Source of the DNA: Euptelea pleiosperma
Taxonomy: Eukaryota; Streptophyta; Magnoliopsida; Ranunculales; Eupteleaceae
DNA: 64,000 bases
NCBI GenBank assembly: GCA_035048495.1
Contig: CM068552.1
Coordinates: 18,664,154 to 18,728,153, forward strand
Direction of reading: 5' to 3'
In this document: positions 31,077 through 37,374 of the stretch, in pieces
Layout: each line of letters starts with the position of its first letter
Numbering within the stretch: position 1 is the stretch's first letter
Translations under genes and position numbers: made by a program
The notes under the pieces: generated by a model
The model's input: the letters and a program-made list of their open reading frames with translations, nothing else
What the model was told of the DNA's origin: nothing
Database searches by the model: none

Positions 31077-31535
31077 AATTTGGTATCAGTAGATGGAGCT
31101 TTTTCTAGGCCTTCGGTTATATCTTCAACGTAGACTATCTTTCCTTTCCTAATGTACTGAATGACTAGCTCGAGGAATTGTGGATACATATGCTTGACAC
31201 GGTGCTCCTAAACATGAAAATACTTGGTCGGATCGCAGTCTATGGATTAAAATCGCAGTTCAACCTTAGTGAGCAAGCGGGTGTACTCACCCACAATAAT
31301 CTATTGTGATAATATGTCAGCAATTGCTCTGACCAAGAATCCAGTCTTCCACAGTAGATCAAAGCATATTGAGCTACGACATCATTTCATCAGAGAATTG
31401 GTTAAAAGCAAAGAGATTGAGCTAAAGTTTTTGCAAGACAGATGAACAACACGCAGATATCTTCACCAAAACAATTACAGCAGAAAAATTCAAGTACTTT
31501 CGAGAATGTATGAAAACTACAAATTAATAAAGGAC
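31077..31535 (+). pseudogene. Array internal region 1: PBS, reductase pieces, Copia RNase H end
   Basis: The PBS-like TTGGTATCAG lies at 31079. Piece A (31092-31192, minus strand) reads [17 protein letters not shown] and IVYVED, then EGLEKAP, matching the C-terminal part of plant 2-alkenal reductases. Piece B (31187-31285, plus strand) matches the LDxVLLNMK, GRIAV and QxNLSEQ part of the same enzyme. The RNase H end follows ([27 protein letters not shown]) with a frameshift near 31430. No functional product is likely. Confidence 0.85.
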
Positions 31536-31890
31536 TGTTAAAAATAATATGTAATTTGTAATTTTAGAAATGTCTAGATAGTTTGTAAAGCCTTCTTAGT
31601 AAATATCCATTGAAGAGTTTAGAATAATGGTTTTGAAAAATATCCATAGAAAACTCTAGAATCTATGGAGGAGTGTAGCCTCTCTAGAAATATCTCTAAA
31701 TCTAGAAATATCTAAAGTAGTATCAATGAGTCTAGAATGTTCTTTATAGTCCTATAAATAGGACATGCATTGTAATTATTCATTCAAGTTGTATAAAACA
31801 AAGTTCTTAAGACTCCATACTAAGCCTCTAAAACCCTCTCCTCTCCAAAACTCAAAACAAGGCATACCATATTTTTTGATTGCTCCAACA
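31536..31890 (+). repeat. Array LTR 2
   Basis: Lacks part of the TTTCTAGAGTCTTCCATGTC block, so it is the shortest LTR. TATA-type motif kept. Confidence 0.9.
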
Positions 31891-32349
31891 AATTTGGTAT
31901 CAGAACAGATGGAGCCTTTTCTAGGCCTTCAACTATATCTTCAACGTAGACTATCCTCCCTTTCCTAATGTACTAAATGACTAGCTCGAAGAACTACGGA
32001 TACATATGCTTGATGCAATGCTCTTGAACATGAAAGTATATGGCCGGATTGCAGTCTGTGGATTAATATCGCAGTACAACCTCAGTGAGCAAGAGGGTGT
32101 ACTCACCTACAATAATCTATTGTGATAATATGTCAACAATTGCTATGACTAAGAATCCAGTCTTCCATAGTAGATTAAAGCATATTGAGCTGTGACATCA
32201 TTTCATCAGAGAATTAGCTGAAGGCAAAGAGATCGAGCTAAAGCTTTGCAAGATAGATGAACAACACACATATATCTTCACCAAAGCAATTACAGTAGAA
32301 AAATTCAAGTACTTTTGAGAATGTATGAAAATTATAATTTAAGAAGGGG
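31891..32349 (+). pseudogene. Array internal region 2
   Basis: PBS TTGGTATCAGA is at 31893. Piece A is at 31905-32008 (minus) and piece B at 32003-32104 (plus). Piece B is among the best preserved: [20 protein letters not shown] and [12 protein letters not shown] read without a stop. The Copia RNase H end runs to about 32340 with a stop in place of a R codon near 32195. Confidence 0.85.
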
Positions 32350-32712
32350 TATTAAAAATAATATGTAATTTGTAATTTTAGAAATGTCTGGATAAATACT
32401 TGAGTCTTCCATGTCTACATAGTTTCTAGAGTCTTTTTAGTAAATATCTATTGAAGAGTCTAGAAGAATGATTTTGAAAAATACCCATAGAAAACTCTAG
32501 AATCTATAGAGGAGTGTAGCCTCTATAGAAATATTTAAAGTAGTATCAATGAGTCTAGAATGTTCTTTAGAGTCCTATAAATAGAACATGCATTGTAATT
32601 GTTCATTCAATTGTATGAAAAAAATTTCTTGAGACTCAATACTAAGCCTCTAAAACCATCTTCTCTCCATAACCAAAAACAAGGCCTACCATATCTTCCG
32701 ATTGCTCCAACA
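32350..32712 (+). repeat. Array LTR 3
   Basis: Starts TATTA. Shares TTCAATTGTATG and AACCAAAAACAAGG with LTR 6, marking a higher-order repeat. Confidence 0.9.
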
Positions 32713-33174
32713 AATTTGGTATCAGAGCAGATGGAGCCTTTTCTAGGCCTTCGACTATATCTTCAACGTAAACTATCCTCCCTTTCCTAATGTACTGAAT
32801 GACTAGCTTGAGGAATTGCAGATACATATGCTTGATGCGGTGCTCCTGAACATCAAAGGACATGGTCGGATCATAGTCTGTGGATTAATATCGTAGTACA
32901 ACCTCAGCGAGCAAGATGGTGTATTCACCCACAAAAATTTATTGTGATAATATGTCATCAATTGCTATGACCAAGAATCCAGTCTTCCATAGTAGATCAA
33001 AGCATATTGAGCTGTGATATCATTTCATCAGAGAATTGGTTGAAGGCAAAGAGATCGAGCTGAAGTTTTGCAAGACAGACGAACAACACGTAGATATCTT
33101 CACCAAAGCAATTACAATAACAGAAAAATTCAAATACTTTCGAGAATGTATGAAAATTACAATTTAAGAAGGGG
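32713..33174 (+). pseudogene. Array internal region 3
   Basis: PBS TTGGTATCAGAGC is intact. Piece A is open on the minus strand at about 32729-32830. Piece B (32825-32935) has a CAG to TAG stop at ISQYN. The RNase H end reads to FTKAIT with an extra AACA before AGAAAAATTC, shared with unit 6. Confidence 0.85.
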
Positions 33175-33556
33175 TGTTGAAAATAATATGTAATTTATAA
33201 ATTTAGAAATGTCTAGATAGTTTCTAGACTCTTCCATGTCCAGATAGTTTGTAGAGTCTTCTCAGTAAATATCTATTGAATAGTCTAGAATAATAACTTT
33301 GAAAAATATCTATAGAAAACTCTAGAATCTATGGAGGAGTGTAGCATCTCTAGAAATATCTCTAAATCTAGAAATATCTAAAGTAACATCACTGAGTCTA
33401 GAATGTTCTTTAGAGTCCTATAAATAGGACATGCATTATAATTGTTCATTCAAGTTGTATGAAATAAAGTTCTTGAAACTTCATACTAAGCCTCTAAAAC
33501 CCTCTCCTCTTCATAACCCAAAACAAGGACTACCATATCTTCCGATTGCTCCAACA
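33175..33556 (+). repeat. Array LTR 4
   Basis: Shares TGTTGAAAATAATATG and the CTCTCCTCTTCATAACC variant with LTR 7. Confidence 0.9.
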
Positions 33557-34855: not shown

Positions 34856-35235
34856 TGCTAAAAATAATATGTAATTTGTAATTTTAGAAATGTCTAGATA
34901 GATTCTAGAGTCTTCCATGTCTAGATAGTTTCTAGAGTCTTTTTAGTAATATCTATTGAAGAGTCTAGAAGAATGACATTGAAAAATATCCATAGAAAAC
35001 TGTAGAATCTATGGAGGAGTGTAGCCTCTCTAGAAATATCTCTAAATCTAGAAATATTTAAAGTAATATCAATGAGTCTAGAATGTTCTTTAAAGTCCTA
35101 TAAATAGAACATGCATTGTAATTGTTCATTCAATTGTATGAAACAAAGCTCTTGAGACTCCATACTAAGCCTCTAAAACCATCTTCTCTTCATAACCAAA
35201 AACAAGGCTTACCGTATCTTCTAATTGATCTAACA
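34856..35235 (+). repeat. Array LTR 6
   Basis: Starts TGCTA. Sister of LTR 3 by shared variants. Confidence 0.9.
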
Positions 35236-35696
35236 AATTTGGTATCAGAGCAGATGGAGCCTTTTCTAGGCCTTCGACTATATCTTCAACGTAAACTATC
35301 CTCCCTTTCCTAATGTACTGAATGACTAGCTCGAGGAATTGCAGATACATATGCTTGATGCAGTGCTCCTGAACATCAAAGGACATGGTCGGATCATAGT
35401 CTGTGGATTAATATCGTAGTACAACCTCAGCGAGCAAGAGGGTGTATTCACCCACAAAAATTTATTGTGATAATATGTCATCAATTGCTATGACCAAGAA
35501 TCCAGTCTTCCATAGTAGATCAAAGCATATTGAGCTGTGATATCATTTCATCAGAGAATTGGTTGAAGGCAAAGAGATCGAGCTGAAGTTTTGCAAGACA
35601 GACGAACAACACGCAGATATCTTCACCAAAGCAATTACAATAACAAAAAATTCAAGTACTTTCGAGAATGTATGAAAATTACAAATTAAGAAGGGG
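35236..35696 (+). pseudogene. Array internal region 6
   Basis: PBS intact. Piece A is at 35252-35353 (minus, open) and piece B at 35348-35446, with the same CAG to TAG stop as region 3, confirming shared descent. The RNase H end has one base lost near AACAAAAAATTC. Confidence 0.85.
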
Positions 35697-36078
35697 TGTT
35701 GAAAATAATATGTAATTTATAATTTTAAAAATGTCCAAATAGTTTCTAGACTCTTTCGTGTCTAGATAGTTTCTAGAGTCTTCTCAGTAAATATCTATTG
35801 AAGAGTCTAAAATAATGACTTTGAAAAATATCTATAGAAAACTCTAGACTCTATGGAGGAGTGTAGCCTCTCTAAAAATATTTTTAAATCTACAAATATC
35901 TAAAGTAGCATCAATGAGTCTAGAATGTTCTTTAAAGTCCTATAAATAGGACATGCATTATAATTGTTCATTCAAGTTGTATAAAACAAAGTTCTTGAAA
36001 CTCCATACTAAGCCTCTAAAACCCTCTCCTCTTCATAACCCAAAACAAGGTCAACCATATCTTCCGATTGCTCCAACA
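35697..36078 (+). repeat. Array LTR 7
   Basis: Sister of LTR 4 by shared variants. Confidence 0.9.
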
Positions 36079-36537
36079 AATTTGGTATCAGAGTAGATGG
36101 AACATTTTCTAGGCCTTCGGCTATATCTTCAACATAGACTATCTTCCATTTCCTAATGTACTAAATGACTAGCTCGAGGAACTACGGATACATATGCTTG
36201 ACGTGGTGCACCTGAACATGAAAGTATATGGCCGGATCGCAGTCTGTGGATTAATATCGCAGTACAACCTCAATGAGCAAGAGGGTGTACTCACCCACAA
36301 CAATCTATTGTGATAATATGTCAGCAATCGCTATGACTAAGAATCTAGTTTTCTCTAGTAGATCAAAGCATATTGAGCTGCGACATCATTTCATCAGAGA
36401 ATTGGTTGAAGGCAAAGATATCTAGTTGAAGTTTTGCAAGACAGATGAACAACACGCAAATATCTTCACTAAAGCAATTACAGCAAAAAAATTCAAGTAC
36501 TTTCGAGAATCTATGAAAATTACAAATTAAGAAGGGG
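36079..36537 (+). pseudogene. Array internal region 7
   Basis: PBS changed to TTGGTATCAGAGT, as in region 4. Piece A is at 36094-36196. Piece B at 36191-36289 is open: [20 protein letters not shown], then [12 protein letters not shown]. The RNase H end has a stop near 36423. Confidence 0.85.
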
Positions 36538-36915
36538 TGTTAAAAATAATATGTAATTTATAATTTTAGAAATGTCTAGATAGTTCTTAGAGTCTTCCAT
36601 GTCTAGATAGTTTCTAGAGTCTTCTTAGTAAATATTGAAGAGTCTAGAATAATGACTTAGAAAAATATCCATAGAAAACTCTAGAATCTATGGAGGAGTG
36701 TAGCCTGTCTAGAAATATCTCTAAATTTAGAAATATCTAAACTAGTATCAATGAGTCTAGAATGTTCTTTAGAGTCCTATAAATAGGATATGCATTTTAA
36801 TTGTTCATTCAAGTTGCATGAAACAAAGTTCTTGAGACTCCATACTAAGCCTCTAAAACCATCTCCTCTCCATAACCCAAAACGAAGCCTACCATATCTT
36901 CCGATTGCTCTAACA
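36538..36915 (+). repeat. Array LTR 8
   Basis: Sister of LTR 5 by shared variants. Confidence 0.9.
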
Positions 36916-37374
36916 AATTTGGTATCAGAGCAGATGGAGCCCTTTCTAGGCCTTCGACTATATCTTCAACGTAGACTATCTTCCTTTTCCTAATGTACTG
37001 AATGACTAGCTCGAGGAACTGCGGATACATATACTTGACGTGGTGCTCTTGAACATCAAAGGACATAGCCGGATCGCAGTCTGTAGATTAATATCGTAGT
37101 ACAACCTCAGTGAGCAAGAGAGTGTTCTCACCCACAACAATCGATTGTGATAATATGTCAGCAATTGTTATGACCAAGAATCCAGTCTTCCACCATAGAT
37201 CAAATCATATTGAGCTGTGATATTATTTCATCAGAGAATTGGTTGAAGGCAAAGAGATCGAGCTGAAGTTTTGCAAGATAGAGGAACAACACGCAGATAT
37301 CTTCACCAAAGCAATTACAGCAGAAAAATACAAGTACTTTCAAGAATGTATGAAAATTACAAATTAAGAAGAGG
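36916..37374 (+). pseudogene. Array internal region 8
   Basis: PBS intact. Piece A is at 36932-37033 (minus, open). Piece B is at 37028-37126, where the junction palindrome has become CATATA. The RNase H end is open through DIFTKAITAEKYKYFQECMK. Confidence 0.84.

Follow-up and report, generated by a model that had tools for sequence, protein, structure and literature searches.

In a window of 64,000 nucleotides of the Euptelea pleiosperma genome (G000:C13:18664154-18728153, one stretch of a 613-Mb, 247-contig genome), a derivative of a Copia-type long terminal repeat (LTR) retrotransposon forms a tandem array in which every internal region carries two pieces, A and B, of a gene for a plant reductase, a detoxification enzyme, lying on opposite strands between the primer binding site (PBS) and the Copia RNase H end. 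In the reading that fits best, and that we consider likely, a Copia family member captured the two pieces from a reductase mRNA by microhomology-guided template switching during reverse transcription, inserted once and was quickly multiplied in place.

The array spans positions 30703-37755 and consists of nine LTRs (355-382 bp) alternating with eight internal regions (459-462 bp). A sequence-only reading of the window had placed it at 31092..37126; the array is real but wider than that, and the arrangement which that reading described, minus-strand A and then plus-strand B in the space from the PBS to the Copia RNase H end, was present in 8/8 internal regions. The full order within each is AATT, a 12-nt PBS, antisense A, sense B, and 249-252 bp of Copia RNase H end with the polypurine tract. 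LTR ends of the TG..CA type, a PBS for tRNA-Met, the polypurine tract and a 5-bp target site duplication (TSD) are those of a Copia-type LTR element, the name Copia resting on what we take to be the sequence of a Copia RNase H end; for an 80-residue piece of that end, Pfam returned no domain above its cut-off. The PBS is the complement of the 3' end, with CCA added, of the initiator tRNA-Met, whose gene has 11 exact copies in the same genome. No gag, integrase or reverse transcriptase of its own was found in the array, the internal regions of which measure just 459-462 bp; with 9 LTRs and 8 internal regions, it also falls among the tandemly arrayed terminal-repeat retrotransposons in miniature (TRIMs; at least three LTRs and at least two internal regions without coding capacity). 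The PBS sequence TGGTATCAGAGC is intact in units 3, 6 and 8 and altered in units 1, 2, 4, 5 and 7, single LTR ends and PBS positions being mutated in some units, while the TATA-like TATAAATAG is present in each LTR. The whole array is flanked by a single AGCAC duplication, and a paralogous empty site in the same window contains AGCAC once, which together point to one founding insertion. The elements of the array and the empty site are as follows:

30698-30702, no strand: left 5-bp TSD, AGCAC, present once in the paralogous empty site
30703-31076, plus: LTR 1, with TG...CA ends and the TATA-like TATAAATAG at 30939
31536-31890, plus: LTR 2
32350-32712, plus: LTR 3
33175-33556, plus: LTR 4
34016-34394, plus: LTR 5
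34856-35235, plus: LTR 6
35697-36078, plus: LTR 7
36538-36915, plus: LTR 8, 82-85% identical to 14 LTR matches elsewhere in the genome
37375-37755, plus: LTR 9
36920-36931, plus: 12-nt PBS TGGTATCAGAGC of unit 8, at the equivalent position in the other units
31285-31535, plus: Copia RNase H C-terminal end and polypurine tract, unit 1
32101-32349, plus: Copia RNase H end, unit 2
32923-33174, plus: Copia RNase H end, unit 3
33767-34015, plus: Copia RNase H end, unit 4
34605-34855, plus: Copia RNase H end, unit 5
35446-35696, plus: Copia RNase H end, unit 6
36289-36537, plus: Copia RNase H end, unit 7, 89-91% identical to five family copies
37126-37374, plus: Copia RNase H end, unit 8
37756-37760, no strand: right 5-bp TSD, AGCAC
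62846-62995, plus: paralogous empty insertion site, 87% identical to the joined flanks, AGCAC once

Pieces A (114 nt) and B (95 nt) were each matched in 8/8 units by tblastn within the window, which outside the units yielded two weak matches to A and one to B, all with E above 0.5. The protein reading of A matched pulegone reductase 7eql (residues 288-320, E 8.3e-9) and that of B matched 2-alkenal reductase 2j3h (residues 237-274, E 1.7e-12); Pfam assigned no family to A alone or to B alone. Sequence comparison thus confirms that A and B derive from a plant NADP-dependent 2-alkenal/double-bond reductase, the origin that had been proposed, and a parental-type gene sought in the same genome was found on contig C7 and aligned to both pieces. 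The candidate source exon is the last exon of a multi-exon reductase gene (C7:988168-988542, in the fetched stretch L021). Both pieces come from a single exon; in that of L021, B (L021:3717-3811) is followed by 63 nt that are absent from the array and then by A (L021:3875-3988). Across the eight units, DNA identity to the exon ranged from 0.868 to 0.912 in A and from 0.878 to 0.939 in the first 82 nt of B. The pieces lie as follows:

31085-31196, minus: piece A, unit 1, with a 2-nt deletion at the PBS overlap
31190-31284, plus: piece B, unit 1
31899-32012, minus: piece A, unit 2
32006-32100, plus: piece B, unit 2
32721-32834, minus: piece A, unit 3
32828-32922, plus: piece B, unit 3
33565-33678, minus: piece A, unit 4
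33672-33766, plus: piece B, unit 4
34403-34516, minus: piece A, unit 5
34510-34604, plus: piece B, unit 5
35244-35357, minus: piece A, unit 6
35351-35445, plus: piece B, unit 6
36087-36200, minus: piece A, unit 7
36194-36288, plus: piece B, unit 7
36924-37037, minus: piece A, unit 8, the antisense of L021:3875-3988
37031-37125, plus: piece B, unit 8, the sense of L021:3717-3811
37031-37037, no strand: 7-nt A/B overlap, ATGCTTG (ATACTTG in unit 8), at the equivalent place in all eight units

When the Aquilegia protein P0018 was used as tblastn query, the first gene copy (L021) showed four exon blocks (residues 77-139, 137-194, 191-221 and 215-345), and its first exon block may lie outside the fetched stretch. 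A second copy about 18 kb away (L022:3700-4180, G000:C7:970199-970679) showed five exon blocks from residue 7 onwards; its last exon (C7:970244-970618) has one stop, an in-frame TAG, for which reason this copy is likely a pseudogene. The nearest named proteins to the reductase last exon, among the best 120 of 2,506 matches, are from Aquilegia and about 85% identical. At the 17 sites that differ between the gene copies, the commonest base of the units agreed with L021 at 11 and with L022 at 6, and given this mixed matching the capture source was probably the ancestor of both copies or an unsampled copy.

The remainder of the unit has relatives in the same genome. The genome searches scored the best candidates only, so that further copies may have gone undetected. 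Among 73 candidates, the LTR search scored 40 matches, 26 of them in three arrays and 14 elsewhere (82-85% identity), and the RNase H end was 89-91% identical to five family copies elsewhere; by these identities, both parts are related to an element family of this genome, in agreement with the Copia derivative originally proposed. Two LTRs on the same strand of contig C8, at 14263254 and 14269361, mark an element of about 6.5 kb, of which the ends alone were read. A pattern for the PBS region gave 41 matches (23 in arrays, 18 elsewhere), 30 of which were read (14 in arrays, 16 elsewhere): all 16 of the non-array sites had the ordinary leader after the PBS, and 5/5 Copia relatives had ordinary pol sequence at the position where the units carry B. 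Copia pol is therefore rejected as the source of A and B, neither of which is carried by the Copia relatives examined.

With the source exon at hand, the joins could be placed on the sequence. At the PBS/A junction, the gene antisense and the PBS share ATCAGAGC (8 nt), and the gene-like sequence is joined to the element at PBS nucleotide 12, the point from which ordinary family copies run on into their leader. The antisense exon contains this 3' 8-mer of the PBS at one place, which is precisely the junction; among 20,000 first-order Markov resamplings of that antisense sequence, 0.8% contained it. ATGCTTG, the overlap between A and B, is the sole inverted 7-mer pair of the exon and again coincides exactly with the junction. 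The join had earlier been placed at the palindrome CATATG, read as HM in both directions; that proposal fails, since the shared run is ATGCTTG, CATATG occurs on the A side only, and the gene copies have CGCATG or TGCATG before B, so the H on the B side is not native. The native order B before A stood up, the spacing between them being 22 residues, corresponding to the missing 63 nt, in place of the roughly 25-30 suggested. The B/Copia join is blunt and lies inside a weakly similar patch, between the runs AGCAAG and CACAAC that are common to gene and Copia.

The A+B query returned 28 genome matches, 24 in three arrays on contig C13 and four in the two gene copies, and the exon-protein query returned 67. 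Of these, the arrays accounted for 24 of A and 24 of B; the remaining 19, on other contigs, would by their identities be reductase-family exons or remnants. Other copies of the A/B junction, which the sequence-only reading had suggested looking for, thus exist as two segmental copies on the same contig; among the best candidates scored, no chimera was found outside these three loci, nor any dispersed family of short non-autonomous chimera elements. In the predicted proteins of other species, the antisense frame of unit 5 gave a single candidate, an ordinary reductase exon in native order. The surroundings of the array (window positions 30281-38280) recur at G000:C13:18896500-18904500 and 19085000-19098000, about 202 kb and 390 kb away. 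The three arrays have identical TSDs; identity to the window is 99.15% over 8 kb for array 2 and 97.7% over 6.1 kb for the right part of array 3. The 24 units of the three arrays group by position and in matching order, with the exception of unit 6, so the eight-unit order is older than the segmental duplications. In arrays 1 and 2, unit 6 is close in sequence to unit 3; in the window array, internals 3 (32713-33174) and 6 (35236-35696) are 98.7% identical, against about 94% in array 3, a likeness that is likely the trace of local gene conversion in an otherwise stable array. LTR 4 of array 3 is split by a nested insertion of about 3.8 kb (L024:2952-7130, G000:C13:19087951-19092129) with no stop-to-stop frame above 110 amino acids.

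Within the array, Kimura two-parameter (K2P) distances averaged 0.109 for the internals and 0.103 for the LTRs. Over 196 columns (114 from A and 82 out of 95 from B, with the 7-nt overlap counted twice), a base foreign to both gene copies was present in all eight units at one column, in a single unit at 35 and in two to four units at 28. With 1/196 columns changed in all units, the branch from capture to the first split of the units was very short, and either the element was multiplied in place right after insertion or it was inserted as a ready multimer.

Template switching could have produced this structure as follows. The minus strand would have quit the Copia RNA at the RNase H end, switched to a reductase mRNA and copied B. 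Once it had left for the mRNA, the partner of the PBS would never have been made, and the end of the plus strand would have been free to prime on the mRNA: ending in ...ATCAGAGC, it would have annealed by 8 nt to GCUCUGAU, in a stretch of that mRNA that lies downstream of B and had not yet been read, and copied antisense A. On reaching ATGCTTG, the plus-strand end could have paired over 7 nt with the minus strand (complement CAAGCAT), and both strands would then have been completed as a short element of the form LTR-PBS-antiA-B-RNaseH-LTR. This would have inserted once, with a 5-bp TSD, and grown in place to nine LTRs and eight internals very soon afterwards; the later history would be one of apparently neutral decay, the locus being copied twice by segmental duplication. 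Such a scheme would account for the order and orientation of the pieces and the way they meet head to head, for their place at the PBS and for the loss of everything between the PBS and the RNase H end. The flipped order reported earlier holds, but the internal inversion invoked for it would be unnecessary as a separate step, because this order would follow directly if each strand of one reverse-transcription product had captured a piece.

The capture was probably a failed second-strand transfer in which host mRNA was copied from the PBS. Alternative end joining (alt-EJ) uses PBS microhomology in second-strand transfer and yields circles (PMC12786077); this form of transfer is reported for fly elements and mouse IAP, plants not being named in the portion of that source available to us (PMC12426944), and template switching has been proposed as the source of complex elements that share LTRs (PMC1950507). 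The published pathway makes such an accident plausible, and circles offer a route to multimers. It is possible, though rather doubtful, that the host mRNA bridged the PBS end of the plus strand and the prematurely switched minus strand and that the multimer too arose in that event, for instance from one-LTR circles that underwent replication before integration or in the course of it; a single event, in place of three, would then have brought about the capture, the insertion and the array.

Several observations weigh against the template-switching scheme, as does the chance, mentioned above, of undetected copies. The similarity between the leader and antisense A runs on imperfectly for about 11 nt past the join (CCTTTTTCTAAG vs CCTTTTCTAGG), so that something other than the plus-strand end may have determined where the join fell. 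Markov-resampled exons (n = 500) contained on average 4.4 inverted 7-mer pairs, and having such a pair is unremarkable, exact as its use at the junction is. The B/Copia join has no exact overlap. Both pieces share one exon, so that an mRNA template could not show itself by its usual sign, the loss of introns, and overlaps of 7-8 nt fit DNA repair too. The K2P distance between LTR 1 and LTR 9 (0.120) is not below that between the flank and its empty-site paralog (0.101), although the insertion is expected to be younger, an excess that is probably sampling noise. Finally, A differs from L021 most often at third codon positions (22/22/46 for positions 1/2/3, compared with 23/21/23 for B), which we ascribe, hypothetically, to change in the gene lineage.

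The main rival is repair at the DNA level, in which polymerase theta-type end joining would have closed a break in a Copia copy or its cDNA and, in doing so, added two insertions templated by the reductase gene on the chromosome. The 8- and 7-nt overlaps and the patchwork of pieces in mixed orientation would suit this, and templated, sometimes iterative insertions are described as a hallmark of microhomology-mediated end joining (MMEJ), reaching up to about 35% in A. thaliana (PMC12426944); yet MMEJ insertions are, according to the same report, generally shorter than 25 bp and templated by the flanks of the break, whereas the pieces here measure 95 and 114 nt and their source is on another large contig (C7 vs C13). 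A breakpoint at the PBS end and the lack of gag-pol before the RNase H end would also suit reverse transcription better, and we judge repair to be unlikely. The exact coincidence of the exon's inverted repeat with the junction could alternatively reflect a history in two steps, the whole exon being captured antisense and the segment between the 7-bp inverted repeats ATGCTTG/CAAGCAT then flipped. A flip alone, however, would retain the 63 nt and the distal CAAGCAT, both of which are absent, so that an extra deletion would be required, and no intermediate copy was found among the best candidates of the genome searches; this history is distinctly improbable.

That the array is one late member of a long-lived gene-carrying TRIM family appears very unlikely, even though its one-unit equivalent of about 1.2 kb is within the range of gene-carrying TRIMs (1,172-1,449 bp, PMC4717578) and tandem TRIM arrays are reported in 35/43 plant genomes (PMC4717578): the best-candidate searches found no dispersed chimera, just 1/196 columns changed in all units, and the family of the LTRs includes a two-LTR pair that spans about 6.5 kb from end to end. 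Chance resemblance or an assembly artefact, for which no supporting point was found, is regarded as refuted by the E-values of A and B against solved reductases (8.3e-9 and 1.7e-12), the 87-94% DNA identity to the gene exon, the matching unit order of three arrays, and the TSD with its empty site.

The array does not appear to code for a reductase. Variable columns among the eight units were spread evenly over codon positions 1/2/3 (12/10/10 in A, 9/12/13 in B), on which ground purifying selection on the pieces after the unit split is rejected. No functional reductase was found in the array, which offers about 70 codons in two orientations, with stops in many units. The longest ATG-started frames are of 83 and 79 amino acids on the minus strand, the former running from A across the PBS into the LTR, followed by a plus-strand one of 77 that covers the RNase H end. 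Given TATAAATAG in each LTR, A would be antisense to the reductase mRNA in plus-strand transcripts, and a small-RNA effect on the reductase is conceivable.

Gene capture by LTR elements and tandem TRIM arrays are both already known from published reports (PMC13317346, PMC4717578, PMC7215508, PMC4528315). Like the tandem arrays of Cassandra and Wukong, the array alternates shared LTRs with short non-coding internals and has a 5-bp TSD, and many LTRs per array are described there as well (up to seven in Wukong, at least 12 LTR copies in Cassandra; PMC4717578, PMC7215508, PMC4528315). It differs from them in its inverted host-gene pieces, in units that split soon after capture, in LTRs of 355-382 bp and in that the chimera was found at a single insertion and its two segmental copies, not as a dispersed family. 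With the gene-carrying TRIMs of soybean and Medicago, such as GmaRetroS15, it shares a size of 1.2-1.4 kb, host exon fragments and a 5-bp TSD (PMC4717578); all but two of those subfamilies have at least two copies (PMC4717578), whereas no dispersed copy of the chimera was found here by the best-candidate searches, and the two opposite-strand pieces of one exon, head to head and with overlaps resolved at the PBS, set it apart. Maize Bs1 is likewise an LTR element with several captured host-gene fragments, but is described as combining pieces of three genes in a chimeric transcribed gene (PMC13317346), in contrast to an array with two pieces of one exon, one of them antisense, and without sign of a functional frame. 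The joining of plus and minus strands through PBS microhomology recalls second-strand transfer by alt-EJ (polymerase theta), for which circular products are reported (PMC12786077, PMC12426944); in place of the normal product of that pathway, the array would be a genomic product with host sequence between the strands. The capture itself is upheld. The term transduplication, which had been applied to it, is used for Pack-type DNA transposons, retrotransposon cases being called transduction or abnormal template switching (PMC13317346).

Among titles and the opening parts of abstracts in the open-licence literature, no report was found of two pieces of one exon that lie on opposite strands and are joined at the PBS, nor of the capture of a 2-alkenal reductase by a retrotransposon. 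The junctions of captured genes are often hard to read for want of the source or of an element without the capture. In the present case one genome offers the source exon, the Copia relatives, the empty site and eight early-diverged units, which make the joins readable to the base. These joins place the capture at the PBS, the site of second-strand transfer, with one piece per orientation. Abnormal template switching would thereby become a concrete, testable scheme, which predicts antisense host fragments right behind the PBS in other plant elements.

Elsewhere in the window, two clusters of short repeats at 203-503 and 53483-53769, parts of which are mutually similar, contain 17 exact occurrences of TCCAATCGATT, three of them as the palindrome TCCAATCGATTGGA. 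Open frames at 11911-14347 and 19710-21581 resemble, by eye, pieces of Gypsy-type gag and pol.

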